25,667 nt of DNA from a virus, in IMG/VR virus record IMGVR_UViG_3300010885_000490, positions 1 through 25,667 of that record. One strand, 5' to 3'. The notes under the pieces were generated by a model. The model saw nothing but the letters and a program-made list of their open reading frames with translations, did not search any database and was not told the origin of the DNA. Positions 5,048 to 19,690 of the stretch are shown here, piece by piece. How positions within the stretch are numbered: the first letter of the stretch is position 1; every line of letters begins with the position of its first letter. The position numbers were made by a program, and so were the translations under genes.

Positions 5048-5729
5048 GTCGCATCCTCTGATTGTCGATTGCGCTGTCAATGACAGCCAGACGGCGCAGC
5101 ATTTCCTCACGTTTGTCGGTCGGCAGATTGTCAATGCGCTTGCGGTTGTCGTCCAAAAAGCCAGTGCAATCCCAGCAATCCCGGCCAGTCTTCTCACCCA
5201 ATCCATAGCCAGGTGGCATGTCTGCCCCAACTGACTGGAGATATTCAAAGATCTGAGCCTCTGTCCAACTCTCAACCGGCATGATGTACTCGATGCCGTC
5301 GATGATCTGCCCATTCTTGGATGTTGACTTACGCCTGTCATCCATCCGCTGCCCCTTGATGATCTTGGTGACGCCCAGATCCTTGATCCCTTGGTAGAGC
5401 GGTATCCAGATGTTGATGGCGCAACACTCAAGACACGATTGCATGATTGGACCATCATTTCCGGTGATGACCTTTCCCAGCGCCGTGTTTTCAACTGGAA
5501 CAACATCAACCGGCCACCCTCTTTCTGCAACATTGGCCGGTTGATCTGATTTCAGGTGGACAAAATGCGGCAACCGTTTGGACCATCGATCCATATACTC
5601 GATCATCTCAGGATAGGACGCTCCGGTATCCAGCCAGACAACATACAGATCATCCCACCTCTCTCTGTAGAGGTAGAGACATGCAAGGCTATCCTTGCCA
5701 CCGCTGAACTGTAGCGCAGTGTCAATCAT
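5040..5729 (-). CDS. PAPS reductase-like PP-loop enzyme (adenine nucleotide alpha-hydrolase family)
   Basis: This 229-residue protein carries the PP-loop SGGKDS at residues 9-14, which binds the phosphates of ATP or a related nucleotide. It also has a Gly-Gln-Arg-Met-Asp-Asp-Arg-Arg-Lys-Ser segment near 126-135, similar to the substrate loop of phage PAPS-reductase-family proteins. Two CxxC pairs, CLEC (99-102) and CWDC (185-188), could bind an iron-sulfur cluster or zinc. The family includes phosphoadenylylsulfate reductases, which produce sulfite, and DndC-like sulfur-transfer proteins. The exact substrate cannot be read here. It sits between two virion/ejection genes with 4-base and 8-base overlaps, so it is expressed late with them. 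It may be an auxiliary metabolic gene or a modifying enzyme. Family confidence is high; function is uncertain. Confidence 0.85.
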   Translation of the reverse strand: MIDTALQFSGGKDSLACLYLYRERWDDLYVVWLDTGASYPEMIEYMDRWSKRLPHFVHLKSDQPANVAERGWPVDVVPVENTALGKVITGNDGPIMQSCLECCAINIWIPLYQGIKDLGVTKIIKGQRMDDRRKSTSKNGQIIDGIEYIMPVESWTEAQIFEYLQSVGADMPPGYGLGEKTGRDCWDCTGFLDDNRKRIDNLPTDKREEMLRRLAVIDSAIDNQRMRHG

Positions 5730-6661
5730 AGGGACGCCAGGGTTCCAAGGATTGATACCGCAGACGATGCAGCACCCAAGCCAGTCAGCAAGCCATTGCT
5801 GCTCTGCCCCGGTCCAGTCTGCGTCTGGGTTGAGCCATATGGTGTAGCACCCAAAGCCTGCAATGGTATCTGCAACTGCTGGAGCGGGAATTGCTGACGC
5901 TCTTTGTATGCCTGCTCCGCCGCCGCAAGTTCCTGCTGCTGCTGGCCTTGCAGGAGCTGCTGCGCACCAAGAGCGCCTGTCGCACCCGTCAGATAGGATT
6001 CCTGACCAGCGCCAGCCAACTGACCAAGTGTCTGCGCACCTTGAAGACCAAGGTTTGCACCTGTCAGACCAGCGGCCTGATTGAGTTGCTGGGCCTGCAT
6101 AGCACGAGCAATATCGGACTGCGCCGCCGTCTGCGCCTGCCCATAGTTTTGCGCCATCAGGTTTGCAACCAAAGATCCAGCTTGCTGCTGTGCAGCAGCA
6201 TTTACAACACCTTCTTGGATGGCCTGTCGCGATCCACCAAATGCTTTGGCCTTTGCCGCAGCATCATAAGCTTGCGTCAACCCAGCCTGTCGCTGCTGAT
6301 CTAGAGCACTCAGAGATGATCCAATAACCGCCTGAGTGTAAGGATTCATGTAGGCAGACAGATCCGTCCCAGCCAACTGACCAGCTTGCACCTGCTGCGG
6401 TTGATACTGTCCAGCCTGCGCCGCCATTCCCTGTGCCATCGCATATGCTGGCTGCGCCATGCCATAATTCTGGCTGATGTTGCCAATAATGCTTTCAGCG
6501 CCAGGCGTCAGACCAGCAACACGCTGCCCCTCATAGGGTCCAAGCATGTTTGCCGATACATCATAGGCTGAAGCAAGGTTTTTCTGCCCTGCTGCCTGCA
6601 CCCATTCAGGGATTTCCGTTTTCTGAACGGTTGTCTGAGTTCCGCCGCCACCACTAGGCAT
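5726..6661 (-). CDS. Gln/Ala-rich ejection / internal virion protein
   Basis: This 311-residue protein is very rich in Gln, Ala and Gly. After a short N-terminal segment ending near Pro-Glu-Trp-Val comes a long, mostly helical region. Near residues 140-150 there is an Ala-Phe-Gly-Gly-Ser-Arg-Gln motif that recurs in injection/tail proteins of aquatic podoviruses. The C-terminus is Gly/Ser/Ala-rich and hydrophobic. Position right after the GNAT-like protein and before the transglycosylase and other ejection proteins fits a DNA-ejection component. The ATG at 6661 overlaps the end of the upstream gene by eight bases and follows a GGAAGGAA site. The family role is inferred from composition and synteny. 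Confidence 0.7.
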   Translation of the reverse strand: MPSGGGGTQTTVQKTEIPEWVQAAGQKNLASAYDVSANMLGPYEGQRVAGLTPGAESIIGNISQNYGMAQPAYAMAQGMAAQAGQYQPQQVQAGQLAGTDLSAYMNPYTQAVIGSSLSALDQQRQAGLTQAYDAAAKAKAFGGSRQAIQEGVVNAAAQQQAGSLVANLMAQNYGQAQTAAQSDIARAMQAQQLNQAAGLTGANLGLQGAQTLGQLAGAGQESYLTGATGALGAQQLLQGQQQQELAAAEQAYKERQQFPLQQLQIPLQALGATPYGSTQTQTGPGQSSNGLLTGLGAASSAVSILGTLASL

Positions 6662-7022
6662 GTTGTATTCCTTCCATCAAGTCTAACTTGTAGGTCACAA
6701 ACTGTTTGGACCAGTCAGGATGCACGGCTTTTTCCCATCCCAGTCTACCGCCACCAAGGATAAAATCACAGCCCTGCTCTTTCGCGTAATTTACCACAGT
6801 TGGGTAGAGTTTGCGCAATGCTGGCAATCGACCTGCCAGCAAAAAAACACTCATGTATTTCTTCCTTGGAGCCTGCTTGATTTCAGTGATGCAGACGCCT
6901 TCCTCATTGGAAAATATCTGCATCTCTCCAGTTTCCAGACAACGGAAGACATCCGCCATTGTGTGTGTTTCCAAACCAACCTTGAGCGCCTTTTCCATCC
7001 GCTTTAGCAAAAACTCACTCAT
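6654..7022 (-). CDS. GNAT-fold protein similar to T7 gp13-type virion proteins
   Basis: This 122-residue protein has the pattern of small phage proteins with an acyltransferase (GNAT) fold. An N-terminal helix is followed by beta-strand segments around MQIFSN and CITEIKQ. A strand ending in a Leu-Ala-Gly-Arg segment (about 60-65) is followed by a helix with Leu-Arg-Lys-Leu and then a strand-rich C-terminus around GGGRLGWEK. T7 gp13 and its relatives are encoded just before the ejection proteins, and this gene has the same place. Catalytic acetyl transfer is not implied, since the T7 protein acts in virion assembly. The ATG shares one base with the upstream TAA (TAATG), so translation is probably coupled. 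Confidence 0.6.
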   Translation of the reverse strand: MSEFLLKRMEKALKVGLETHTMADVFRCLETGEMQIFSNEEGVCITEIKQAPRKKYMSVFLLAGRLPALRKLYPTVVNYAKEQGCDFILGGGRLGWEKAVHPDWSKQFVTYKLDLMEGIQHA

Positions 7023-7252
7023 TAGTAATTCGGTGCTCCAATTTGGCCCAGAGGAACCAGTGTTGTTGTGAGAGTCCCGGTATTTCCAACCGTAATTTTG
7101 TACACTGATCCATCAGGAGATTGTAGCAGAAGCGAATCCGCAGCCTCCATCGTCGAGACAGAGCGCCCAAAAATGCGATCGATGGCCGAAAACGCTCTGA
7201 TAAAGTAATCAGGCTCATATTTTGCCGGTGCTGGAGGAAGATTGATCCTCAT
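7022..7252 (-). CDS. Small conserved-type phage protein, unknown function
   Basis: This 76-residue protein begins with a Pro-rich segment, then an amphipathic helix containing Tyr-Phe-Ile-Arg-Ala-Phe, and ends with short predicted beta strands with Thr repeats. Small proteins of this shape are often found immediately after the gp10-like tail protein in aquatic podoviruses. Its ATG overlaps the stop of that gene by four bases (ATGA), with a GGGGGTGGG stretch in front. Its stop shares a base with the next ATG. Nothing in it indicates enzymatic activity; a tail or assembly role is inferred from location only. Confidence 0.65.
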   Translation of the reverse strand: MRINLPPAPAKYEPDYFIRAFSAIDRIFGRSVSTMEAADSLLLQSPDGSVYKITVGNTGTLTTTLVPLGQIGAPNY

Positions 7253-8991
7253 CGCCCACCCCCACTTGTCAGATCAATGCGCATTTCGCCAATGCTCCAC
7301 TCGGCATCTTGAGTTGATGCAATCTTCATTCTGAAGTCACGCCCAGTCACCCTGGTATCGCAGTATCCATTGGATCGCGGATTGAACGGTCCAGAAGTGT
7401 ATTCCGTCCCCTCAGGCGTAAAGCTGCTGAAATAGGTCAACTGGGTGCTTGCATATCCATAGCCACTATCCGTGATCGTCTGCTTTACATGGGAAAGTGC
7501 AGATCCGTTGGCGACATTGATGCTGGATGTTTCTGCATAACGGCCAGTTGTTATAGGAACACCAGCAGCCGTCCATCCATTCTCTTGAAAGTACAACTCT
7601 CCAGAACTGTTGCCAGTAACGGGATATTGGAAGATCCCAGCACCTTGCGCAGCCGTCCGTTCCATTTCTCCGATAGACCACCAGCTTTCCGCATAGTTGT
7701 AACAGACATATCGATTTGGATTGCCCTGTCCAATTTCTGGATACCAAAACCAGACTTCAGGAAAGACACTGTTGTCAGATCCATGCGTGTAAAGGATGCC
7801 TGCATCAGGATCAATGTTGTCGAAGACAAACGATCCAACGTCGCAAGGCAATGGCTTCACGACGCCACCATCATAGAGCCAGAAACCTTCACGCCCCATC
7901 CAAATGCAGCGACCTGCAAATGTGGCAAACGATCTTGGGGCGATCAAGCCGCAGCCAAACCCAATGCGCTCAATCGAGTAGATATAAGGCAAGCCAATGT
8001 AGCGCATCAGCCATGCTTCATCCTCAGTCCAAATGAGCGTTCCTTCGCGGACAGCCGCACACATGATGATGCCACTGGAAGTATCAAGGTCGAGATAACC
8101 GGCTGTCACATTTGGATCTGAATAGTTCCAGTTTGTGTAGTCCTCGCTTGCAGACCATGCCACCCGTCGATTATTGCCTCCCGCACCAAGCAAAACAGCA
8201 TAACGCTCTGGAGTAACTACCACTGCACGGTTGTTCAGCGGAGGAAGATCACCAGCCGCAGATTGTGCAGTTCCACCTGTTCCAGAGGCACTAGTGCCTG
8301 TGTTGCTGTATGTAAATGAGGAATCAGTTGGAACCGTTGCAATAGTAAATGTCCCATTCATGGAGCTAATGCTGGTTCCTGCAATGGTAACGCTCTGACC
8401 AACAATAAACCCGTGATGGTGATCTGTGGTGATTGTCACGATGTTGGACGCCCTGACCGCAGTTGCGATGCTGTTGTATCCAACAGGATGCGCCTGGTCT
8501 TCGCCCTCACCATAATGAAGTAGGCGACCATCGCTTGATGCAACAGCCAGAACATCGCCACCCCAGTTATCAAACGTCCATGAAAATGCTGGGATAAAAT
8601 AGTTAGATTGAGGACGTGGATATGTGACATCAGTGTCATCACCATAAAGCAGCGCACCATAGTTCCATGCACCATATCCGCCAACAGTGCTGACATTTTC
8701 ACCGACAAACCCTGTAGGTGTTACATTTGTGTAGATAGCACCCTCAAGTGCATAAAGAGTATCTCCGCACCCAACCATTGTCAGATGCGTTCCTGCATTT
8801 GTTGTCCATGTGAACAATGCACGAGGCGTGCTTGCAAGAGACGTTGCCGTGATGCGCTGCCACCCGCCAACTGGAAGAAGTTTGTTGGATCGCCAACGTA
8901 TAAGATTGGCATCCCAATAACGCCCCTTCACCTGTAGAGGTGTGGCTGTTTTGACAACGCCTGCTGGGATGCTCAGTGGTGCAAGTGGCAT
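7249..8991 (-). CDS. P22 gp10-like tail/DNA-stabilisation protein with inserted domain
   Basis: This 580-residue protein starts with the pattern seen in phage stabilisation and tail-nozzle proteins: residues about 22-45 contain Gly-Arg-Tyr-Trp-Asp then Trp-Arg-x-Asn-Lys and Gly-Gly-Trp-Gln-Arg. Strand-rich repeats follow, such as Trp-Ser-Ala-Ser-Glu-Asp-Tyr and Tyr-x-Leu-Asp-Asp-style blades, consistent with a beta-propeller. These proteins extend the portal and adaptor and seal the packaged genome. Residues about 174-246 form a Thr/Ser/Gly-rich beta domain that looks inserted, after which the core pattern resumes with Asn-Asn-Arg-Ala-Val-Val-Val-Thr-Pro-Glu-Arg. The start is ATG with a weak AAAGG site. 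The family call is firm; the exact role (gp10-like or nozzle) less so. Confidence 0.75.
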   Translation of the reverse strand: MPLAPLSIPAGVVKTATPLQVKGRYWDANLIRWRSNKLLPVGGWQRITATSLASTPRALFTWTTNAGTHLTMVGCGDTLYALEGAIYTNVTPTGFVGENVSTVGGYGAWNYGALLYGDDTDVTYPRPQSNYFIPAFSWTFDNWGGDVLAVASSDGRLLHYGEGEDQAHPVGYNSIATAVRASNIVTITTDHHHGFIVGQSVTIAGTSISSMNGTFTIATVPTDSSFTYSNTGTSASGTGGTAQSAAGDLPPLNNRAVVVTPERYAVLLGAGGNNRRVAWSASEDYTNWNYSDPNVTAGYLDLDTSSGIIMCAAVREGTLIWTEDEAWLMRYIGLPYIYSIERIGFGCGLIAPRSFATFAGRCIWMGREGFWLYDGGVVKPLPCDVGSFVFDNIDPDAGILYTHGSDNSVFPEVWFWYPEIGQGNPNRYVCYNYAESWWSIGEMERTAAQGAGIFQYPVTGNSSGELYFQENGWTAAGVPITTGRYAETSSINVANGSALSHVKQTITDSGYGYASTQLTYFSSFTPEGTEYTSGPFNPRSNGYCDTRVTGRDFRMKIASTQDAEWSIGEMRIDLTSGGGR

Positions 8992-8994
8992 TGT

Positions 8995-9261
8995 TTATGC
9001 CTTTCTAATGTTAACAAGTCGGCTGTCAGCCTCTAGAGCAACAAACTCATGCGGGTAGTTGATAGGCCAGTCAACCACATTCCCGCACACTAGCACTCTT
9101 TCCCAGCCATCACCGTGCGCCCTGAATGATCCCTTAGCCACAATGGATATATGCACATCCGCCTCAGTGTGCGTGTGCATGGGCAGTACGTCATCAATCT
9201 CAGGGAAGTCGTAGACTGTCCCTTTGACTATGCCATATTCAATCTGGATCGTTTTCATCAT
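8995..9261 (-). CDS. Small cupin-like protein
   Basis: This 88-residue protein contains a short cupin pattern: a His-x-His pair at residues 29-31 region (MHTHTEADVH), then a strand Ile-Ser-Ile-Val-Ala-Lys-Gly-Ser, and later His-Glu-Phe-Val-Ala-Leu. This matches single-domain cupins that occur near tail-fibre genes in many aquatic phages. Cupins can be metal-dependent enzymes or simple binding scaffolds; nothing here decides. It starts one base after the TGA of the 81-residue gene and is followed by the gp10-like tail gene, so a virion-assembly or fibre-associated role is plausible. Two adjacent ATG codons are possible starts; the outer one is used. Confidence 0.65.
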   Translation of the reverse strand: MMKTIQIEYGIVKGTVYDFPEIDDVLPMHTHTEADVHISIVAKGSFRAHGDGWERVLVCGNVVDWPINYPHEFVALEADSRLVNIRKA

Positions 9262-9262
9262 G

Positions 9263-9508
9263 TCAGATTACCACAGGGTCCGTTGTGGCAACTGGCGCTT
9301 TTTCCGGGGGTGGAACGTAGGGGGAAATTGCACCCCAGACACCATCAATGCAGGACTTATAAATTGCGCGGCCATGTTCCTCAACATCATTGATTGACGC
9401 TGTAAATGGCAATTCCTGCGCGACCGTATCAAACTTTATGACGCAGTCTACCGTACTCCCGTCTTCGCTGGAGTAGATAAGATTTTTGACATATTCAACA
9501 TTTGACAT
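9263..9508 (-). CDS. Small protein after the tail fibre, unknown function
   Basis: This 81-residue protein is acidic, with a beta-rich N-terminal part and a Pro-rich C-terminus (Pro-Pro-Pro-Glu-Lys-Ala-Pro). It has no signal peptide or membrane segment. It starts after a TAAGGAG sequence in which the upstream tail-fibre TAA stop forms part of a strong Shine-Dalgarno site. Position directly behind the tail fibre is where small fibre-assembly proteins are often encoded, but no specific chaperone motif is recognised. The function is unknown. Confidence 0.65.
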   Translation of the reverse strand: MSNVEYVKNLIYSSEDGSTVDCVIKFDTVAQELPFTASINDVEEHGRAIYKSCIDGVWGAISPYVPPPEKAPVATTDPVVI

Positions 9509-9518
9509 GTTTTTCTCC

Positions 9519-10478
9519 TTAAGCGATTCTGATCCATACAGAAATGGTGTGTATCACGCCACATGCAGGATCATATTCAATGGCACCATTCAGCTGCCAA
9601 GTTCCTGACGGTGAAGTTGCGCTAACGTAATAACCACCGCCGATGCCCGCATATTTTAAGTTTGACCCTGCAGAGGTAAATCCCGGCCCATATGTTCCGC
9701 CAGTGCCCTGATAAATCAAGAAAGCGTATGTACCAACTGCACCTACAGTTGTGACGAGTGAGATAGTCCCGCTGGTTGTGATGGTCCCGCCCGTCAATCC
9801 TGTTCCGGTGGCAACGGAAGTAACCGTTCCACCAGATGAATATGGAGCCACACTATTCCATGTGGTTCCATTGCTAGTCAGAATGTTTCCAGCGGTCCCT
9901 GGCGCCACAACCTGAACAGCGCTAGTCCCATTACCAAGTAAAACATTGTTGGCAGTTAACGTAGTAGCACCCGTGCCACCAGCCGCCACCGGCAAAGTTC
10001 CAGCAGTCATCGCAGACGATGACGTTGAATACAGCGCATTATTTGCCGCCGTCAGAGTTGCAAGGCCGGTTCCTCCATTTCCAACAACAAGAGTTCCTGT
10101 AACTCCTGTTGTAAGAGGCAATCCAGTAACATTGGTCATAACGCCAGATGCAGGCGTCCCAAGAGCAGGTGTTGTCATTGTCGGACTATTGATAGTCGGA
10201 TTGGTCAGCGTCTTATTAGTAAGCGTCTGCGTCCCTGTCAGTGTCACGTAACTAGAAAATGTAGATCCAGATAATGTACCTGAAACACTCAGTGTCCCGG
10301 CAACTGACAGGGTTTTACCAGCGCCAACATTTAATCCAACAGACGTTCCGGTTCCAGCAGCCGCAAAGAGAGCGTCAAGCGTATCCAAATCAGTATTGAG
10401 CTTGGTTCCCCATGTATCCTGTGACGCGCCAACCTGTGGCTTTGTCATGTTCAGATTGGCAGTAAATGTGTCAGCCAT
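9519..10478 (-). CDS. Tail fibre protein
   Basis: This 319-residue protein has a typical phage tail-fibre arrangement. Residues 1-35 carry the Asn-Leu-x-x-Thr-Lys-Pro...Gly-Ala...Asp-Thr-Trp-Gly-x-Lys-Leu-Asn N-terminal pattern that attaches many fibres to the tail. The middle has Leu-Thr-Asn-Lys-Thr-Leu-Thr-Asn-Pro and [17 protein letters not shown] repeats followed by GNGGTG and AGGTGATT turns, as in fibrous collar regions. The C-terminal about 80 residues are a compact beta domain, rich in Gly, Tyr and Trp, ending in a Trp-Ile-Arg-Ile strand, likely receptor binding. The ATG follows an AGGGGAT site overlapping the TAG of the preceding gene. Host-receptor recognition is a family-level inference. 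Confidence 0.85.
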
Positions 10479-10488
10479 CGCTTATCCC

Positions 10489-11355
10489 CTAAGCTGCAAT
10501 GTTCCAGGTTGAAGACAGCACTGGTTGAACTGTCCATGTATCTGATGCAACGGGTTGAACCGTCCAAGTGTCATCTGCAACAGGTTGCGTATGCCACGAG
10601 ATGTCTTTGCCCTCTGCAAAGGCGGTGCTAGTTCCAGCAGCAGACCCTGCCATAAATGCTGTGGCGCGGAAAACACCAGAGACAGAACAGGTTCCTTCAG
10701 CCAGTCCATTTGCAGCGTTTGTACTCCGCAAGACACCTGAAACTGTGCAAGTTCCAGCAGCAGATCCAACCGCAGCACGGATCAGAACGCCAACTGCACT
10801 AACTGTAGACGTTCCAGACGCAGAACCAACCGAGCTGATTATTCCCGTGGCGGTCGCAGTAGCTACTGATGTTCCAGTAGCAGTACCAACCATAGATGCT
10901 GTTGCAGTTGCCGTTCCGTTGACAGTCGATGTTCCAATAGCGTTGCCAACCACAGACACTATTGCAATGGACGTTCCATTAACCGTTGAGGTTCCTGCTG
11001 CGCTTCCTACGCCAGCAACCAAACGTAATGCAAACCCAACTCCTGAAACAGTTGATGTTCCAACTGCACTGCCTGCACCTGCAACAAACCGTAATGTTTG
11101 CCCAACTCCAGTAACACTGGATGTTCCAACTGCGTTTCCAGCGCGTGAAACAATGCCAGCTGCAAACCCAACACCAGAAACGGTTGATGTTCCAACCGCG
11201 CTACCAACCGCTTCAGATATTTTTGCTCCAACCGCAGAAGCAGTGCTAGTACCAGTAGCAAATCCAACAGCATCACCAGTCGGGAGAACAACCAAAGACC
11301 CACCCGCGATTGGGTAGGATGCTATTGGTAATGATGCGATCCCGTATTTTGCCAT
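10489..11355 (-). CDS. Short-repeat fibre-like protein with C-terminal Trp repeats
   Basis: This 288-residue protein consists mainly of about eleven tandem repeats of 20-22 residues starting near residue 31 and ending near 247, with consensus G-S-A-x-G-T-S-T-V-S-G followed by hydrophobic residues. The final 32 residues hold three 10-residue repeats with consensus QPVxSDTWTV. There is no signal peptide, enzymatic motif or clear membrane segment. Such Gly/Ser/Thr repeats suggest a repetitive beta structure, perhaps a solenoid shaft. It lies between the endolysin and tail-fibre genes, so it is probably a fibre or virion decoration. The ribosome site before the ATG is weak (GCAGGC). I do not recognise a named family. 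Confidence 0.75.
   Translation of the reverse strand: MAKYGIASLPIASYPIAGGSLVVLPTGDAVGFATGTSTASAVGAKISEAVGSAVGTSTVSGVGFAAGIVSRAGNAVGTSSVTGVGQTLRFVAGAGSAVGTSTVSGVGFALRLVAGVGSAAGTSTVNGTSIAIVSVVGNAIGTSTVNGTATATASMVGTATGTSVATATATGIISSVGSASGTSTVSAVGVLIRAAVGSAAGTCTVSGVLRSTNAANGLAEGTCSVSGVFRATAFMAGSAAGTSTAFAEGKDISWHTQPVADDTWTVQPVASDTWTVQPVLSSTWNIAA
10615..11265 (-). repeat. Tandem 60-66-base repeats encoding the G-x-A-x-G-T-S-T motif
   Basis: Eleven units start at residues 31, 51, 73, 95, 117, 137, 157, 177, 197, 217 and 237 of the 288-residue protein, so units are 20 residues except the second to fourth, which are 22. At the DNA level several units are near-identical, for example the recurring plus-strand stretch gttccaactgc and its close variants between about 11046 and 11205. 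The array has probably grown by unequal crossing-over or slippage. Confidence 0.85.
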
Positions 11356-11379
11356 TGGACGCCTGCTTGCCGTGTTAGA

Positions 11380-11892
11380 TCATTCTACCATAGAGGCTCC
11401 AGTTTCCGCTACAGCATCAACCCTAGCCTCCCATCCACGGCCAAATGTGGCAAAGTTGGAAAGTGATTTTAGAAACTCCAAGCGTTTGTCACAAAGTGAG
11501 TTAACAACATCTGCTGGATTTAGAGCGCAGATAGCACTGATTGATTTCTGGCCTATGGCGCCATCGTCAGCAACACCAGCAATCCGCTGCAAGAACTTGG
11601 CAGATCGGCCAACTCCGCTGTTCACCGCAAAATCATAGGCTGCATAATCCACCCCAGACGGAAGATCATCGCAGCGCATCTTGTCCCAGTACATGGCCTT
11701 GTAGAACGGCTTAACTGCTTCTGGCGTCAGAGCGCGCATTTCCACCTCTGTCACATCCCGGTTCAAATATGCCTGCCAAGCAGATCGAGTGACGCCCAGA
11801 TTGGTCATTCCACCTGGGTCTTTTGGATGGTTCACAAACCCGCCTTCATGCTTCAACACCATCTTGAAGCAATCATCCCAATTCTCTTTCAT
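11380..11892 (-). CDS. Endolysin, glycosyl hydrolase family 108 muramidase
   Basis: This 170-residue protein has the GH108 signature at residues about 14-35: Lys-His-Glu-Gly-Gly-Phe, then Asp-Pro-Gly-Gly-Met-Thr-Asn-x-Gly-Val-Thr. Glu16 is the expected catalytic residue. A Tyr-Trp pair (68-69) and the second region at about 83-103 (Tyr-Asp-Phe-Ala-Val-Asn-Ser-Gly) match the C-terminal peptidoglycan-binding part (PG_binding_3) usual for this family, and 170-190 residues is the usual length. It cleaves the glycan strands of peptidoglycan to lyse the cell. There is no signal peptide, so it needs the holin encoded just upstream, whose stop overlaps this ATG by four bases. Confidence is high. Confidence 0.9.
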   Translation of the reverse strand: MKENWDDCFKMVLKHEGGFVNHPKDPGGMTNLGVTRSAWQAYLNRDVTEVEMRALTPEAVKPFYKAMYWDKMRCDDLPSGVDYAAYDFAVNSGVGRSAKFLQRIAGVADDGAIGQKSISAICALNPADVVNSLCDKRLEFLKSLSNFATFGRGWEARVDAVAETGASMVE

Positions 11893-12413
11893 TTGCCGTC
11901 CCTCGCGGTAAGAGCATCCGTTTTAGCTTTCGACCCAAGACTGGAGCCATAATAGAACTGCGTCACGCCAGTCCATGAAGTGCTGAGAGACCCCAGCATC
12001 ATCAAGATGACTTCAGTTCCTGTCTTCGGAATCCCGAACACCAAAATGTAAACCAGCGCACCGAAGAACCCAAACGTGATGATGAAGGCCAGTGCCTTCG
12101 GGGTCCAGTCTTTGGTCTCGCGCTGCATCTGCCGTGCGCTGTTGCGATCACCGGCGGCGATGCGCTCAAGATCAATGTCCAGCTCTTTCATATGCGCTTT
12201 GAAGTCAGCATCGATCTTCTTCAGTGCCACAAGCTGGTCTGGCGATGCTGAAGCCATTGCTGTCTTCACCTCATCTTCAGAGCCGTTTTCATGGCCCAAT
12301 AGCACGTTGGATAGCGTCTTGACGGCAATGCCAGCCAGCGGCCCACCCAGAGCCGTAGCGATGGTAGGAGCGATCTGACCAAGCAGCGGTCCAAACTGAT
12401 CCAGTATGCTCAT
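11889..12413 (-). CDS. Holin, three-helix GTA type
   Basis: This 174-residue protein begins with a hydrophobic helix (about 10-38, PLLGQIAPTIATALGGPLAG region), followed by a charged soluble stretch with a Gly-Asp-Arg-Asn-Ser-Ala-Arg motif (88-94) and two membrane segments, about 107-128 and 134-152. This arrangement matches the holin family with three transmembrane segments found in gene transfer agents and phages of Alphaproteobacteria. The holin forms holes that let the neighbouring endolysin reach the cell wall. The adjacent endolysin supports it. Its ATG follows TAGGGGT, where the previous gene's TAG stop lies in the ribosome site. Confidence 0.8.
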   Translation of the reverse strand: MSILDQFGPLLGQIAPTIATALGGPLAGIAVKTLSNVLLGHENGSEDEVKTAMASASPDQLVALKKIDADFKAHMKELDIDLERIAAGDRNSARQMQRETKDWTPKALAFIITFGFFGALVYILVFGIPKTGTEVILMMLGSLSTSWTGVTQFYYGSSLGSKAKTDALTARDGK

Positions 12414-12422
12414 GTTAGACCC

Positions 12423-12890
12423 CTATCTGTGGAAAGCTGCAATCGCAAGAAGGGAAAATATAGCGGCAACCGTCAGGAACAAAATGATAACAACGCTCCA
12501 TTGAGCAATGTTGTCCATCAGTTCCGCCTGTTCATTTTCAGCCTGAATTTGCGCTGCTTTGATGTCTTTCTTGATCTTGGTTGTAGCTGCTACAACCTCA
12601 TCCCAAGCTGCTAGTCCAAACTCGCCAACGAAATGGTTCTTCAGATCGGCCATCATCTGGTCAGCTTCAGCCTTTGCGGCATAGGCTTCCATTGCCATCT
12701 GTTCTGCTGTTTTACCTGATAGCAAGCTGCCGTGATGCGGTTCTGCGGCAATGCGCGTCAGATGCGCAACACTATCAAACAGGGAACTGACATCCTTCGC
12801 CATTCCCTGAATTTCTTTGCCCACAGCAATGCCGCCCTTGATGGCTTCATAGCTGGCCTTTGCAATGGCTAGGATCGTGATCGGGTCCAT
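12423..12890 (-). CDS. Membrane-anchored small protein of the lysis region
   Basis: This 155-residue protein has an N-terminal hydrophobic/Gly-rich helix (about 5-27), a long charged helical middle with coiled-coil character including Lys/Glu-rich stretches (about 60-120), and a clear C-terminal membrane segment (about 131-152) followed by a short His-Arg tail. Proteins with this shape and Met-Asp-Pro start are common in aquatic phages but without defined function. Being one base away from the preceding 76-residue gene and 9 bases before the holin, it may belong to the lysis machinery, perhaps as a spanin-like or holin-accessory protein. No lipobox or Rz-type pairing was recognised, so this remains a guess. 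Confidence 0.65.
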   Translation of the reverse strand: MDPITILAIAKASYEAIKGGIAVGKEIQGMAKDVSSLFDSVAHLTRIAAEPHHGSLLSGKTAEQMAMEAYAAKAEADQMMADLKNHFVGEFGLAAWDEVVAATTKIKKDIKAAQIQAENEQAELMDNIAQWSVVIILFLTVAAIFSLLAIAAFHR

Positions 12891-13120
12891 TACTTGTCAG
12901 CCTTCCCATCCAGTTTGTCGTAGATGCGCTTGAACATGCTTTCAATGTGATCCATGCGCTTGTCTAGGTCATCCTTGCGGACATAGTTTATCGGAAGATC
13001 GACTTCAATCTTATGAAGATCTGATTTCAAAACTTGCACGGCTTCCCATAATATCCTGGCAAACCAGCCAGACGTGGCAAGCACGGCTCCAAAGATCATG
13101 TTGATGGTTGACTGGTCCAC
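12890..13120 (-). CDS. Small membrane protein with coiled-coil tail
   Basis: This 76-residue protein has a single N-terminal membrane segment at about 7-28 and a charged helical tail containing Asn-Tyr-Val-Arg-Lys-Asp-Asp and ending in Asp-Gly-Lys-Ala-Asp-Lys. It starts with GTG (13118-13120), supported by AGAGGGA a few bases upstream. It overlaps the next gene by one base (TAATG). Similar short TM-plus-coiled-coil proteins with the Val-Arg-Lys-Asp-Asp motif sit near phage lysis genes, often unannotated. A role in lysis or in membrane association of the virion is possible but not shown. Confidence 0.65.
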   Translation of the reverse strand: MDQSTINMIFGAVLATSGWFARILWEAVQVLKSDLHKIEVDLPINYVRKDDLDKRMDHIESMFKRIYDKLDGKADK

Positions 13121-13143: not shown

Positions 13144-16100
13144 TCAGAACATGCGGAAGAAATTACCAATTCTAGGAGCCGCCGTGAAGATCCAGCCTAA
13201 TGTTCCACCATTCGTAGAGTTGGCACCAGCATACCATGTCGACGCAGTTGCATATGCTTTGATATTGTTAACTGCTAGGTAATTTGAGTCTATGGCTCCT
13301 GCTGTAATTAGCGTGGCAGGTGAAGCTGCGGATGTTCCTTGGATGGTTAGCAAATTGCCTGCGGTTCCTGCTGCGGTGAATTGCGAAACGGTTGTGCTGG
13401 TGGCGGCAAAGTTGATTGTTGCCGCGCCGGTCGCGCCATAGGTGTTGGTGATGTTTCCAAAAGTGTTGTTGCCGGTGATGTTGAGCTGCCCCGCACCGCC
13501 CTGATCCAACGTGATGTTGGCGTAAACAATACCGCCCCCGGCAAAGGTTTTGGTGGAGGCGCTGGTCAGTTTGATGGTTCCAGATCCGGTTACGGTAAGA
13601 TTGGTGGCGGTCGTTGCGTTCCACCCCGGCGTTCCAGACAATGTCCAAGTTCCAGTTCCAATAGCGACGGTTCTCACGTTTGAGTTAGAAGTGTTAAAAA
13701 ACACCGCGCTTACGTTGTAATTAACGGCGTTAAATGTGCCCGCAGTTAATATAACACCGTTGGCGCTAGTGCTGTTCATAGCATCCGCCAAAGTTACGGA
13801 CCCGCTAGGTGAATTGATTACAATTGGTTGCGTAAATGCTGGCGCGCCCGCACTTGTAATGGTTTGAGTTCCGCGCCCAGCAAATGTGATTGTGCCAGTC
13901 CCAGTGATTGATGTAATACCTGACCCATTGATCCAGTTGCCGTAGATTGTAGGCGGCGTCGAGCCAGTTGCTAATATCATTGTATTGGTCGTGCGGCCCG
14001 ACATATTAATAGTGCCGATATTATAACCGGTGTTTCCACCATTTATGGTGATGGTTGCGCCAGAATTAAGGCCGGTGGACTCAATCCATGCCGTATCTTG
14101 CGCCAATGGAAAATTGTTAATGGCGGGAGTTCCGCCGCTAGTCGTTGCCCATGAAGCTACGCCACCCCAGTTGCCACCAGCAGCAAGGTTCCAGTATTTG
14201 TTGACGCCAACGGGGAACGTTATGCCGCTATTGCCCTTGCAATCACCAAAGCGTGTGCCGCTGATAGGTGCGGCAGCGCCAGCAATGATAATGTCACAAA
14301 AATCAACATCAGCAGATCCTGCGGCAAATGTTCCAACTGTAAAAGTGCGCGGCGTTCCAATGGTATCAGACGAAATAAAATTGCGCATTGAGGCATCAGT
14401 CCCCGCAGAAATTGTAAGTGTGCCCGTAATAGTTTGATTGCCGCTAAAAGAAAAATTGCGAACACCAATGTTTATATAGCCAGCAATAGATAGATTAACA
14501 AAAGTGTTTGACCCAGTTATTGAAAGACCTGATGCTGTAGTTGACGTAATATTAAATGTTCCATATGAAAGCCCACCAAAACTTAATGTTCCGGTGGTAA
14601 GATTGCAATTAATAGTTGAAGATCCGGCACTAAAAGTTAAGTTTGTTGTTGTTGTAAAAGTAAATGCGGCGGTAGTGGTTACAGTGCTGGTGCCAAAAGT
14701 AATTGATCGCGTATTTGCATTGCTTGACGATAAGCTTGTGCAAGACAACGCAAAATTTGCGGTATCAAAAGATCCATTTGTAACTGTAAACGCGCCGCCA
14801 AATGTAGTTGCAAAACCAAGCGCCCACCCACATCCAACACCATTGACAGTCACGGCAGACGCCAGCGCCACACCATTTGTCGTAAACGTCTTGCCCGTTG
14901 CAGATCCGGTCAATGTAATTGCACCCGTATAGGTGCGCGTCATTCCGGTTGCAGGAAGCGTCACGTTGCCATGAATAGCCAGCGGTGCTGTGCCTGCAAA
15001 GGTAAGATTTCCAGTTGCTGGCCCTGCAATCGTCAGTGAGGCACAGCGCAACTGTGTTGCTGTGCAGGTGACGGTGTAGGCGGTGGCGTTAGAAACCGAG
15101 TCAAAAACGACATTGTCGGCAGATGTCGGAACAGATGCGGGACGAACGTCGCCGACACTTGATGACCAATTAGTTGTTGTTGTAGCGTCCCATGTGCCAT
15201 TACCGCCACGCCACCAACGTGTAACAGCCGCAGGCGCAGCAGTGAGAATGACGCCAGTGCCTGTACCAGTGCTGTTTGCGCCAGCGTAGAACTCGCCGGG
15301 CGAGGTTGTGCTGATAGCGGTTGTGCCCATCGCAAGGTAGTCTACGCCAGACACGCGAGCGCCTGCGATGGTCAGCGTGGCGGTGCCGGTGACGGTGACT
15401 ACGTTGCCAACGGTGCCGGTGATGGTCCATGCGCCAACTGTCTGTGTGGTAGTGCTCAACGCAATCGTGTGAGCAACAGTTTTGGTTGAAGCGAGTTCTG
15501 TAAATTGGTTGTTGCCACTGATGGTCAGTGTCGATGTGCCAGTTGCGCCGCCAATGGTCAGTTTATTGTACGACAATCCGTTTCCATCAAAAGACCTAGC
15601 AGAAGTAGCCGTGTTGGTGAGCAATATGTTGGCGGTGCCTTTTTGAAGCGTAAAACCTGAAGCACTCACGAGCCAAACACTACTACCTGTAGTTGTTAAA
15701 GACCACAAGCCGGAACCCATTTTAAGTATTGAAGAAGCGCCAGTTAACGCAATGGTAATAAAAGACCCAAGCGATACGTTAAACGTAACTGCGTCAAAAG
15801 TTCCATTGTAAAATGAAAATTGACCCGTCACCGAAAGCGCATCGCCTAACTGGAGTGTACCCGCACCGCAAGTTACAGAAAAGCTGTTAGGAAACGTTTT
15901 TCCGTTAGATGTGATTGTTTGTGTAGTCCGACCAAAAAAATTCATGGTTGAACTGGAACCGGACATTGTAAGTCCAGAACCGGAAGTCCAATTTTCGTGG
16001 ATATTTAAGCCAAAAGTAGCAAAGGAAAGCGTCATAGCGGTGGAGCGCGGGGACGCGTCAAACGATCCAATGTTCCATTGTGTGTCAACAGTAAGTGTTG

Positions 16101-17724
16101 TTGGGACAGTTCCAGCGTTGTCAAACGTAGCCGTGTCTTGTGCTAGAGGAAAATTGTTAACTGCGGGGGTGCCACCAGACGTTGCGGCCCAGCCTGTAGA
16201 TGACCAATTTGCAGAAGCGCCACCAAGGTTCCAGTACACCGTTTTGGTGCCTGGAAAAGTGATGCCGGAATTTCCACCGCAGTCGCCAACGCGCAGCGTG
16301 GAAGCGTTATAGGGTGCAGCAGCGCCTGCGATTGCAATGTCCCTGAAGTCGCAATCTTGTGCGGATACAGCGGCGCATGTCAGCGTGCGCTGAGTGTTGT
16401 TGGCTGAAGACTGCAAGAAAATGCGGCGTATGGCGGACGCGCCAGCGCACGTAAGAGTGCCGGTGATGGTTTGGTTGGCAGCAAATGTGCAACCCATAAG
16501 GCCGGTAGCGGCAGAAGCCGTAAACGTCAAATTTGCAAACGTATTTGCTCCCGTTATTGCATGAGTAGCCGCAGTGGTTCCGGTAAAGTTAACGTTGTTG
16601 AACGTAAGTCCGCCGCCATTAATTGTGACGGCAGAAGTGCTGGTGCAATTTATGGTGGATGTTCCGGCATTAAACGTCATGTTTGTTGAAGTTGTAAAAG
16701 CTATTGGGTTAGCCCCAACAAGCGTTATTGCGCTTGCACCAAGATTGATAGCGCGCACGTTAGAATTAGAAGAAGAAAAAGAGTTTGCAGATATTGCCTG
16801 CCCATTTGTAGCAAACGTGCCGTTAGTGACGGTCAGCGGATTTGCCCCGATGTTCAGTGCATCAATAAGCTGGACGGTGCCGCCGTAAGTATCAATGCTA
16901 ATACCAGCGCTATATGTTTTACCGGCACTTGTAATTGACTGTGTATTGCGCCCACTAAAAGTTAATGTAGCAGTACCGCCAAACGAAACGCCAGTGCCGT
17001 TCTTCCAATCACCGTAGATGGTGAAAGCTGTCGTTGACAACGTCATTGCGCTGCTGCGCGCAGACATGTCTACGGTTCCGGTGTACGGGATAGCAGCATC
17101 CATTGTTATGGTGCCGGTCACGCTGCCGGTATTATTAAACGTCGCAGTATCTTGAGCCAACGGAAAGTTAGTTGTAGCAGGAGACCCACCAGATGTAGCC
17201 GCCCAGCCAGTGGCCGACCAATTTTGCGCACCAGCAAGGTTCCAATAGACCGTTTTAGCCGCAGAAAACGTAACGCCCGTTACACCACGCAGATCGCCGA
17301 TGCGCGTCCCAGACAGCGGAGCCGCAGCACCAATAACCCGCAGGTCACGAAAATCAAGATCAGACAACCCAGACGTAGAATTGACCGAAAAATCAGTAGC
17401 TAGTCCATAGGTGGTGCCGCGGATCAAAAACCGCCTGTTGCCTGCCGTTCCAGACATAGAAAACAAATTTGTAACGGTCAAAGATACGGTAACTGCTATT
17501 GTTGAAAAGCCAACAGTAGCACTAGGCGTCAGCGTCAATGTGTCGATAGTTACCGCTGTGTCTACGGTTACGGTAAGGCCAACAAGGCCAGAACTAGCGT
17601 CAAATATAGCCGTATCGCCAGCGCCGGGAACTGTTGAGCCTGGTGCGCCGCCAGATGAAGCTGACCAATGATTTGTCCCATCAGACCAGGTGCCTGCCCC
17701 AGCAACCCAATACCGGATAGCCAT
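13144..17724 (-). CDS. Giant super-repeat adhesin / tail-spike-like protein
   Basis: This 1526-residue protein is the largest gene here. It is rich in Thr, Ser, Gly and Ala, low in charged residues, and built from repeated modules. Residues 1-157 form a shortened module; four full modules start near residues 158, 495, 836 and 1175. Each begins with a Trp-rich motif such as YWN-L-x-G...NWS...W-A-T-S-G-G, then contains G-R-x-T-Q-x-I-T-S-x-G, an N-G-T-F segment and an I-T-G-x-N-T-F segment. This suggests beta-rich repeats, possibly a beta-solenoid or chain of domains, as in adhesins and long tail fibres. There is no signal peptide or enzyme motif. Position between adaptor/decoration genes and lysis genes suggests a virion-attached receptor-binding fibre. 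An AGGAG site precedes the ATG. Confidence 0.8.
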   Translation of the reverse strand: MAIRYWVAGAGTWSDGTNHWSASSGGAPGSTVPGAGDTAIFDASSGLVGLTVTVDTAVTIDTLTLTPSATVGFSTIAVTVSLTVTNLFSMSGTAGNRRFLIRGTTYGLATDFSVNSTSGLSDLDFRDLRVIGAAAPLSGTRIGDLRGVTGVTFSAAKTVYWNLAGAQNWSATGWAATSGGSPATTNFPLAQDTATFNNTGSVTGTITMDAAIPYTGTVDMSARSSAMTLSTTAFTIYGDWKNGTGVSFGGTATLTFSGRNTQSITSAGKTYSAGISIDTYGGTVQLIDALNIGANPLTVTNGTFATNGQAISANSFSSSNSNVRAINLGASAITLVGANPIAFTTSTNMTFNAGTSTINCTSTSAVTINGGGLTFNNVNFTGTTAATHAITGANTFANLTFTASAATGLMGCTFAANQTITGTLTCAGASAIRRIFLQSSANNTQRTLTCAAVSAQDCDFRDIAIAGAAAPYNASTLRVGDCGGNSGITFPGTKTVYWNLGGASANWSSTGWAATSGGTPAVNNFPLAQDTATFDNAGTVPTTLTVDTQWNIGSFDASPRSTAMTLSFATFGLNIHENWTSGSGLTMSGSSSTMNFFGRTTQTITSNGKTFPNSFSVTCGAGTLQLGDALSVTGQFSFYNGTFDAVTFNVSLGSFITIALTGASSILKMGSGLWSLTTTGSSVWLVSASGFTLQKGTANILLTNTATSARSFDGNGLSYNKLTIGGATGTSTLTISGNNQFTELASTKTVAHTIALSTTTQTVGAWTITGTVGNVVTVTGTATLTIAGARVSGVDYLAMGTTAISTTSPGEFYAGANSTGTGTGVILTAAPAAVTRWWRGGNGTWDATTTTNWSSSVGDVRPASVPTSADNVVFDSVSNATAYTVTCTATQLRCASLTIAGPATGNLTFAGTAPLAIHGNVTLPATGMTRTYTGAITLTGSATGKTFTTNGVALASAVTVNGVGCGWALGFATTFGGAFTVTNGSFDTANFALSCTSLSSSNANTRSITFGTSTVTTTAAFTFTTTTNLTFSAGSSTINCNLTTGTLSFGGLSYGTFNITSTTASGLSITGSNTFVNLSIAGYINIGVRNFSFSGNQTITGTLTISAGTDASMRNFISSDTIGTPRTFTVGTFAAGSADVDFCDIIIAGAAAPISGTRFGDCKGNSGITFPVGVNKYWNLAAGGNWGGVASWATTSGGTPAINNFPLAQDTAWIESTGLNSGATITINGGNTGYNIGTINMSGRTTNTMILATGSTPPTIYGNWINGSGITSITGTGTITFAGRGTQTITSAGAPAFTQPIVINSPSGSVTLADAMNSTSANGVILTAGTFNAVNYNVSAVFFNTSNSNVRTVAIGTGTWTLSGTPGWNATTATNLTVTGSGTIKLTSASTKTFAGGGIVYANITLDQGGAGQLNITGNNTFGNITNTYGATGAATINFAATSTTVSQFTAAGTAGNLLTIQGTSAASPATLITAGAIDSNYLAVNNIKAYATASTWYAGANSTNGGTLGWIFTAAPRIGNFFRMF
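13144..17724 (-). repeat. Array of about 338-residue (about 1 kb) super-repeats in the adhesin
   Basis: Module boundaries by sequence motif: M0 at 17254-17724 (short), M1 at 16243-17253, M2 at 15220-16242, M3 at 14203-15219, M4 at 13144-14202. Intervals between the module-start motifs are 337, 341 and 339 residues. M0, M1 and M3 share one type of end (GAAAP...GTR.GD...GITF; in M1 the GTR site reads STL), while M2 and M4 share another (WYAGANST or FYAGANST followed by a TAAP). The array thus reads short-A, A, B, A, B. Confidence 0.85.
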
Positions 17725-17727
17725 TGA

Positions 17728-17946
17728 TTACTCCTGCGGAGCGTCAGAGGGGGCGTCAACAGGTGGCGCAGTGACAATGGCAATCCAGTTGTCATAACGC
17801 TGCTGCTTCATCGCCTCAATCTCTTGAGGCACCAGCTTCTCGTAATCCGCAGGCATCATCACCAGCGCATCGTGAAGAACGAAGGGTTCAGTTCCAATCT
17901 GAAACTGGTCTGCAATGCGACCATCTTCAAGCTGCACGATAGCCAT
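17728..17946 (-). CDS. Small acidic protein upstream of the adhesin
   Basis: This 72-residue protein is acidic, starts with a short strand-rich region (Ala-Ile-Val-Gln-Leu-Glu-Asp-Gly), contains a helical middle with a Met-Met-Pro-Ala-Asp-Tyr-Glu segment, and ends in a Pro/Asp/Ala-rich tail. It has no membrane segment or catalytic motif. Its ATG follows AGAGGAA, next to the stop of the 221-residue gene, and the next ATG lies three bases after its stop, so the three genes are probably co-translated. The role is unknown; a chaperone or small virion component for the neighbouring fibre genes is a guess. Confidence 0.6.
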   Translation of the reverse strand: MAIVQLEDGRIADQFQIGTEPFVLHDALVMMPADYEKLVPQEIEAMKQQRYDNWIAIVTAPPVDAPSDAPQE

Positions 17947-17957
17947 GGGATTCCTCT

Positions 17958-18623
17958 TTATGCAGTTGCAATACAGCGCCAGTCACTGGTAGCAAGATTG
18001 TACACAAACCCAACATCAAGCCGATTTGTTGAGACTGTTGTAGTAGGAAGCGCCACAGTTGATGACTCAAACGAAGCACCCCAGGTTATCGGGATTGCCG
18101 TTGTTCCGGTGATCGAAATCCAAAGCCTCTGACCATTCACAGGCGTACCTGTAAGATTGGTTGTAAACGATGTAATAGTATTGCTTTGGCCTGTAATCAC
18201 CATCATGTCGTAGTTGTCAGTGTTCAGTGTTGGAGTAGCGCTGTTAGCTGTGCTGGCAAGAACACGGATTGGAACGCGACCCAATGCGGTGACATTTCCA
18301 GACGCATCCAACTGAGGCGAACGAGTTGCCTCCATTGTAATGAATACATCTTTGGTTCCAGCAGAGAATGTTACCGCTGATCCAGCATTTGACGATGAAT
18401 AAATGGTTGTCCTGGCAAACACGTTCGCCGATGAATACGTCCCAAGTCCAACTTCCCACTCATTTAAAGATTGGTGCTGGATCGAATAATAGAACGTATC
18501 TCCAACGCTCAGGACAGCGGAAAACGTGCGATAGCCATTGGCAGGCGTCCCAGATACCGTAAACGATCCTGAACCTGCCGTGCTTGATGTATCGCTGACG
18601 CGATCCGCTGTCACAAAAGCCAT
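17958..18623 (-). CDS. Virion structural protein, fibre/decoration type
   Basis: This 221-residue protein is rich in Thr, Ser, Ala and Gly with regularly spaced hydrophobic residues, indicating an all-beta fold. The N-terminal half contains Gly-Tyr-Arg-Thr-Phe and Val-Gly-Asp-Thr-Phe-Tyr-Tyr, followed by Glu-Trp-Glu-Val-Gly-Leu-Gly-Thr-Tyr and Phe-Ala-Arg-Thr-Thr-Ile, a pattern frequent in tail or head decoration proteins of aquatic phages. The C-terminal half has strand-turn repeats ending in Tyr-Asn-Leu-x-x-x-x-Trp-Arg-Cys. It lies between another beta-rich structural gene and the adhesin. The ATG follows a GAGGAC site, with the upstream TAA in between. A surface role is likely, but which one is not known. 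Confidence 0.65.
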   Translation of the reverse strand: MAFVTADRVSDTSSTAGSGSFTVSGTPANGYRTFSAVLSVGDTFYYSIQHQSLNEWEVGLGTYSSANVFARTTIYSSSNAGSAVTFSAGTKDVFITMEATRSPQLDASGNVTALGRVPIRVLASTANSATPTLNTDNYDMMVITGQSNTITSFTTNLTGTPVNGQRLWISITGTTAIPITWGASFESSTVALPTTTVSTNRLDVGFVYNLATSDWRCIATA

Positions 18624-18628
18624 AGTGG

Positions 18629-19057
18629 TTAGTCCTCAGTGATCGTAGATGCGGTTGTCAAGCGAGGCGTTACGCCAGAAGTCACCGCAATGCTAGGAGA
18701 CACGGTGCCGCTGTAATAGAGAACGCCAGCGCCTGTAGATGCAGTTCCAACGCCAAAGTAGGTGACGGTGGATGAACCAGCCGTGCAGGCGCCAAAGTCG
18801 ATGTTGGCAACAGGTGAGACGCTATTAGCTGTAACAGTCCAGCCGCCTGTTGTACGGGCAACCGCAACACGCGCATATCCCGTGTAAGTTGCTTCGCTGG
18901 TAGACTGATCGCCAGCCTCGCCGGGATCAGCTGTATGGAGCGACACATACAGATTTGTTAGCGGTGATGACGCTGCGTTATCAGCCAGATTGGCAATCGC
19001 TGTTGCGTTGAAGATCAACTTCAACAGCGAATTTTCAAAGGCGTTTGATTTTGACAT
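18629..19057 (-). CDS. Phage tail-fibre/virion protein (gp80-like small beta protein)
   Basis: This 142-residue protein shows a pattern common in phage fibre-associated proteins: residues about 36-60 contain Leu-Tyr-Val-Ser-Leu-His-Thr-Ala-Asp-Pro-Gly-Glu-Ala-Gly-Asp-Gln, then Tyr-Thr-Gly-Tyr-Ala-Arg-Val-Ala-Val, and later Phe-Gly-Val-Gly. The N-terminal helix precedes a beta-rich body. It is well placed between the adaptor gene and the 221-residue structural gene. Its ribosome site TAAGGAG contains the TAA stop of the adaptor gene, a tight translational junction. The family is recognised by motif only; a virion-surface role is the likely function. Confidence 0.75.
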   Translation of the reverse strand: MSKSNAFENSLLKLIFNATAIANLADNAASSPLTNLYVSLHTADPGEAGDQSTSEATYTGYARVAVARTTGGWTVTANSVSPVANIDFGACTAGSSTVTYFGVGTASTGAGVLYYSGTVSPSIAVTSGVTPRLTTASTITED

Positions 19058-19069
19058 TGATCTTTCTCC

Positions 19070-19690
19070 TTAACCGTAGACGCGAGTTGTTCTCGCAATC
19101 AATGGTGATCCGCTGTGAAGTGCTTTCTGAGACTCGTCTTGCAAGGATTGAACGCGAGCCAGATAAATCTGACCAAAAACATTGACCCTTTGGTCATCCA
19201 TAAGGAATGGCGCTGCATGAGTCAGCGCTCCATAAAGATAAACATCAGGTGCCTTGGTTATGAGCCAGTTTGTGGTGACGGCATCAGACAGCGCCGGGAT
19301 TTTTGCATAGTAGACCATCTCTACTGTGATGTAGTCCCCAGGCGGAGGAACAAGCTCGATTGCGCCATCCATCAGCGAATAGAAACGTGTCTGCGTGTAG
19401 GTGTTGCTGGCATTGATAATGTCAGCCTCATCCAAAGTGATGTAACGCAGTGGACTCTGACCACCTTGGATCTGAAGGTTGATGCCTTCCAGCCAATCAG
19501 TCGGAAGTTTTACAAACTCATCGCTGTTGTTGGTTGTAGCGCGAACGATCATTTCGCGTGTTCGCAAACGTGTATTTAGGTCAGCCTCTGCAAACTGAAT
19601 AAACGTCTGGATCTGTGAAGTAAGATCTGCACGGTTGAGATAGTCAGCAATGGCTGACTGCAACGTGGCGTAATTTGTAATTGTGCCCAT
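19070..19690 (-). CDS. Head-tail adaptor protein (SU10/P22 gp4-like)
   Basis: This 206-residue protein fits the adaptor proteins that bind below the portal in podoviruses. An N-terminal helical region (Tyr-Leu-Asn-Arg-x-Asp-Leu...Phe-Ile-Gln-Phe-Ala-Glu-Ala) is followed by a segment Leu-Asn-x-Arg-Leu-Arg-x-Arg-Glu-Met (about 34-46). A beta-rich middle has Leu-Pro-x-Asp-Trp-Leu-Glu, and a helical C-terminus has Tyr-Leu-Tyr-Gly-Ala-Leu and ends in Arg-Val-Tyr-Gly. The ATG shares one base with the TGA of the preceding gene (TGATG). It lies one gene after the capsid gene, the expected location. Adaptors close the portal channel and attach the tail. Confidence 0.75.
   Translation of the reverse strand: MGTITNYATLQSAIADYLNRADLTSQIQTFIQFAEADLNTRLRTREMIVRATTNNSDEFVKLPTDWLEGINLQIQGGQSPLRYITLDEADIINASNTYTQTRFYSLMDGAIELVPPPGDYITVEMVYYAKIPALSDAVTTNWLITKAPDVYLYGALTHAAPFLMDDQRVNVFGQIYLARVQSLQDESQKALHSGSPLIARTTRVYG

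Follow-up and report, generated by a model that had tools for sequence, protein, structure and literature searches.

A putative phage host-binding rod with a frozen five-module core and ends exchanged at a single joint

The window (the whole 25,667-nucleotide stretch of viral DNA analysed here) encodes a 1526-residue adhesin-like protein assembled from repeated modules. We tentatively propose, at somewhat less than even confidence, that this protein represents an undescribed and widespread group of host-binding rods with a frozen five-module core and exchangeable ends at one joint, and that roughly one-third of the complete five-module genes would yield their tail as a separate chain, through initiation coupled at an overlapping stop and start inside what relatives keep as a single continuous domain, so that one adhesin would be built from two polypeptides.

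A sequence-only reading of the same DNA had described the gene as built from four full modules starting near residues 158, 495, 836 and 1175 and preceded by a shortened copy. The open reading frame is present as described (Table 1), and a profile built from the ~60 residues that begin each module places Trp-rich caps (W..W..W....P...D) at residues 3–63, 158–218, 495–555, 835–897 and 1175–1239, with intervals of 337, 340 and 340 residues between the full-module caps in a profile search of the protein. The period of about 338 residues is also recovered by self-comparison: the score autocorrelation has maxima at lag 680 (z 6.3) and lag 340 (z 3.3), and every module pair aligns well beyond shuffled controls (z 6.4 to 29), the full modules within this protein being 29–47% identical. 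In module 0, residues 1–58 align to the cap and residues 57–157 to the final ~100 of module 1. Its missing interior, estimated earlier at ~180 residues, amounts to ~185 and is seen directly against orthologues with a full first module. The two types of module end, A and B, occur in the order proposed (short-A, A, B, A, B), and judged by sequence the protein is one block R-A-n-A-n-B followed by a second block R-A-n-B.

Table 1. Features of the adhesin locus and examples of split sites in relatives
Feature	Position	Strand	Description
Adhesin-like ORF	13144..17724	minus	1526 aa, ATG start
Module 0	17254..17724	minus	Residues 1–157, shortened: cap plus last ~100 residues; RYW cap, A end
Module 1	16243..17253	minus	Residues 158–494; YWNL cap, A end
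Module 2	15220..16242	minus	Residues 495–835; YWNL cap, B end (FYAGANST); closes block 1
Module 3	14203..15219	minus	Residues 836–1174; RWW cap, A end; opens block 2
Module 4	13147..14202	minus	Residues 1175–1526; YWNL cap, B end (WYAGANST); closes block 2
Equivalent of the conserved gene-fission/tail-exchange point of relatives	13237..13281	minus	Residues 1482–1496 (YLAVNNIKAYATAST); fused in the window
C-terminal hydrophobic peptide GNFFRMF	13147..13167	minus	NFF tail class; low pLDDT in model
72-aa partner gene	17728..17946	minus	Homologues directly upstream in 56/69 five-cap loci, gap mostly 0–3 nt
221-aa protein, phrog_3030 C-terminal domain	17958..18623	minus	Domain common to the gene preceding the P19250A relative
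Gp80-like (podophage GP4 fibre I)	18629..19057	minus	Family match
SU10-type adaptor	19070..19690	minus	Family match
288-aa protein	10489..11355	minus	GTSTVSGVG repeats and Trp-spaced tail like adhesin-fused tails of relatives (sequence)
Split-site examples in relatives	L003 9226-9229; L013 7717-7720; L029 10943-10947		Plus 19 further loci with overlapping stop/start

AlphaFold2 monomer predictions using family alignments gave confident all-beta models for both halves of the protein: residues 1–835 with pLDDT 91.3 and pTM 0.82, and residues 836–1526 with pLDDT 88.2 and pTM 0.80, the final nine residues being disordered. The best fold match in the viral library, to residues 1–835, is the 'Parallel beta-helix repeat' protein BFVD A0A6J5T8W4 of an uncultured Caudovirales phage (TM 0.84/0.93, 57% identity), which belongs to the same family and, as a predicted and uncharacterised record, provides neither function nor architecture. 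The fold search of the PDB returned nothing below E 0.001, with TM-scores of about 0.1–0.2; the weak neighbours (Foldseek probability ≤0.2) are all-beta, solenoid-like proteins without a significant match, namely beta-helix autotransporter passengers and podophage tailspikes (Hbp, Ag43, CBA120 TSP1), together with PL6 lyases. Together, the models and matches suggest that the modules are likely beta-helices, with a presumed handedness.

At the sequence level the 1526-residue protein has no match in Pfam, PHROGs or the PDB and nothing of substance in NCBIfam, and we found no description of the family in the literature searched, the coverage of which was incomplete. Relatives are nevertheless frequent in viral metagenomes, where pattern searches with the two cap types, in ~600 stretches each, confirmed at least 570 and at least 516. 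An alignment of all caps together (A1) was too heterogeneous to serve as a search pattern. To judge from these searches, the proteins form a widespread family that is without a description in the public family libraries searched. The loci read were the best 80 per query, a sampling that leans to sequences near the query, and among them are 71 distinct five-cap proteins, counting that of the window. Modules 1–4 of these 71 are mostly 331–353 residues long, and their first modules fall into length classes of 155–162, 281–287, 332–350 and 367 residues. The cap order R-A-n-A-n-B-R-A-n with ~340-residue spacing is found in 57 of the 91 complete cap proteins and is the one that the window fits. The search of metagenomes for other module numbers that had been suggested earlier does recover them: a two-cap R-A-n architecture in 13 of the 91, and one relative (L001) with an additional leading block, both apparently built by the same block grammar as the window protein. 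One further locus (L004, 4852-10830) combines a phage protease domain (phrog_20754) with three RYW-type caps that lack the usual B/R grammar; its repeats are propeller-like in appearance and are accompanied by Ser/Thr-rich stretches. A tblastn search of phages with a single cap gave no match, and a genome scan returned one locus only, on a contig that carries phage genes and was assigned to a Verrucomicrobia MAG; since this MAG-binned phage contig is the sole match, the host assignment is not firm. Locus L163, on a contig with phage structural genes in a Verrucomicrobia MAG, carries two cap proteins (5113-7650 and 8516-13108), one single-cap with a Trp tail and one five-cap ending in SSFFLMF.

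There is good support for the earlier reading as a large adhesin-like phage protein built from repeats, but its suggestion that whole units are shuffled as domains is not supported. In each of the 71 distinct five-module homologues, the closest relative of a module in another protein occupies the corresponding position, and this holds for all five positions (71/71 each). Mean identity is 53–66% between modules at the same position across orthologues, against 30–44% between different positions. On these position-specific nearest neighbours we reject whole-unit shuffling; they imply that the duplications are older than the divergence of the carrier phages. The module order thus appears, from these comparisons, to be an old and fixed duplication series that is inherited as a unit. 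The linkage noted earlier between start types (YWNL versus RYW/RWW) and end types holds here and in the relatives, where an A end is followed by a non-RYW start at 276 joints and a B end by an RYW-type start at 87; an A end precedes an RYW start in eight instances, about half of which are pattern misreadings. A simple reading is that of a block grammar, in which an RYW cap would open a block, A/YWNL joints would be optional inside it, and a B end would close it.

Variation is found instead within the modules and at the two ends of the protein. Two relatives (L090 and L126) have identities of 0.57, 0.65, 0.83, 0.96 and 1.00 over modules 0–4, and such mosaic pairwise identities point to in-register recombination within modules. 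Mapped on the core tree, which may itself be blurred by recombination, the tail class requires at least 25 changes and the first-module length class at least 19. In several sister pairs, DNA identity is ~0.8 near the joint and drops to background within ~100–200 nt past it; the profile of the pair L007/L163 is not valid, L007 having been on the opposite strand. The tails of the non-truncated multi-cap proteins, classed automatically and hence approximately, are short and hydrophobic (for example GNFFFMF) in 35, long with spaced Trp in 22, split in 22 and of other types in 14. These sequence patterns indicate that exchange does occur, in register within modules and at the two protein ends. The 288-aa protein encoded in the window is possibly a free-standing tail; a free-standing Trp-tail partner was seen near 3 of 25 NFF loci, the flanks of the loci often being cut.

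The split class comprises 22 distinct loci from independent assemblies, in all of which the gene is interrupted at the same codon position, right before the last cap. The core ORF ends with ..ITGVRAYPL or ..VRAY; its stop is overlapped by the ATG of another frame, which encodes M(T/S)WYAGxNSTNNGSLGW and the tail; in fused relatives, and in the window, the same region is a single uninterrupted segment. The break is a -1 frame change, which is what assembly or sequencing frameshifts would produce, with the stop/start overlap then meaningless. We nevertheless consider error highly improbable and reject it on the recurrence at a single site, the identical codon being affected in every one of these loci and ATGA, TGATG or TAATG being present every time (30 of 30 split junctions, a count that includes overlapping loci). 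The arginine codons just upstream likewise turn to AGR in 15 of 18 split genes, against 9 of 43 fused ones (Fisher p 8e-6, an optimistic value given that the sequences are related); this shift is consistent with a ribosome-binding role, though confounded by kinship, and the contrast in Shine-Dalgarno energy at the split is weak (median -3.8 vs -3.3). Joining of tail to core by programmed frameshifting, rather than separate translation, would agree with the second frame being open for 3–16 codons 5' of its own ATG, but it is an unlikely explanation: a canonical slippery heptamer X_XXY_YYZ is absent from all 30 junctions (overlapping loci again included), on which ground we rejected it, and the junction sequence varies among clades while the stop/start overlap is kept. 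Our best inference from the junctions is that the split tail would be made by separate translation coupled through the overlapping stop and start.

The window phage, a freshwater-type phage, is an SU10/GP4-type podophage whose virion and lysis genes form a cassette that includes the adhesin gene. The genes upstream, on the same strand, code for a portal and a major capsid protein, both of the SU10 type, the SU10 adaptor, the Gp80 relative, the phrog_3030-domain protein and the 72-aa protein. On the downstream side come a small gene of lipoprotein-like type, two genes with matches to PHROGs of unknown function and the gene for a GH108 endolysin, beyond which follow the 288-aa repeat protein, a virion structural protein and a DNA ejection protein. 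The adhesin gene is thus located in a virion structural cluster, between adaptor, Gp80 and fibre genes on one side and lysis, ejection and virion genes on the other. The 221-aa protein is likely a fibre component. The 72-aa protein is a candidate chaperone or adaptor; a representative relative had no PHROGs or PDB match, and relatives share the motif DALHLPDDHTFTDAEIQAMKQQRxDNWIAIVTAPP. A PADLOC search found nothing.

Related proteins occur in phages of other types. Limnohabitans phage DC31 (PQ492658), the host of which is cultured (PMC12195039), encodes an ORF of at least 1373 aa that is 54% identical over residues 88–1187, with the same cap order and the same small gene upstream; DC31 differs in its Mu-type portal, and its adhesin ORF runs off the record edge. 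In that record (L005, PQ492658 1-3331) the adhesin ORF is without annotation, only small antisense ORFs being annotated. The 'PE family protein' of Methylophilaceae phage P19250A (KX815270) has one RYW cap, the C-terminal peptide GNFFFMF and a phrog_3030 fibre gene before it; it differs in combining a single cap with a Gly-rich region, and its phage encodes a tape measure and the host-specificity protein J. A further relative (L003) adjoins a P22-type portal and coat. That one adhesin type is found next to a P22 portal and coat, next to a Mu-type portal and also where tape measure and protein J are encoded is as expected of an exchangeable host-range module. The BACON-domain protein of crAssphage also has tandem repeats, but of a different domain; the abstract of that study describes tandem repeats as hotspots of evolution (PMC6949934), and the frozen order of the adhesin array contrasts with this. 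No autotransporter passenger or translocator domain was matched in Pfam or NCBIfam, and the adhesin gene is part of a phage late operon.

We infer both virion location and receptor binding, and consider it rather probable that the protein forms a rod-like fibre which is attached to the virion and binds the host. An enzymatic tailspike, in which at least one beta-helix module cleaves host surface polysaccharide, would also agree with the presence of PL6 alginate lyases and tailspikes among the weak PDB fold neighbours; we think this alternative unlikely, as Pfam, PHROGs and NCBIfam give no lyase or hydrolase family match or other catalytic signature, Glu and Asp are few (4 E and 43 D of 1526 residues) and the Foldseek probabilities against the PDB are low. 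Somewhat less improbable, though still rather unlikely, is a passive structural or decoration fibre, acting as a spacer or as capsid or tail decoration, that sets the reach while the exchanged tail or another fibre binds. The rigid order and lengths of the core, the restriction of swapping to the tails and the other fibre candidates in the window (the 221-aa and Gp80-like proteins) all fit such a spacer; the divergence of the core modules between orthologues, with its in-register mosaics, goes beyond what a pure spacer would be expected to show.

For the host-binding fibre that we favour, we envisage five beta-helix modules, each with a Trp cap at its start and an A or B end at its close, that would form two blocks placed end to end and make up a rod on the virion touching the host surface. 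The core would set length and geometry, with its internal order structurally fixed, and its surface would vary by sequence drift and in-register recombination. Variation in host recognition may further arise from changes in first-module length and from C-terminal tails being exchanged at a single joint just ahead of the last cap, the options being a fused hydrophobic NFF tail, a fused Trp-spaced tail, a second overlapping frame and perhaps a free-standing tail such as the 288-aa protein of the window. A typical N-terminal virion anchor was not found, the first cap starting at residue 3; given this and the highly varied C-terminal tails, the rod could attach to the virion by either end.

The frozen order runs counter to the expectation of free shuffling among the tandem modules of phage fibres. 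Instead, a fixed joint, whether fused or split, appears to mark where nature swaps fibre tails and leaves the core undisturbed. The present description would supply a name and a testable architecture for these probable host-binding proteins, a large family that lacks annotation and of which at least one carrier, Limnohabitans phage DC31, is in culture.
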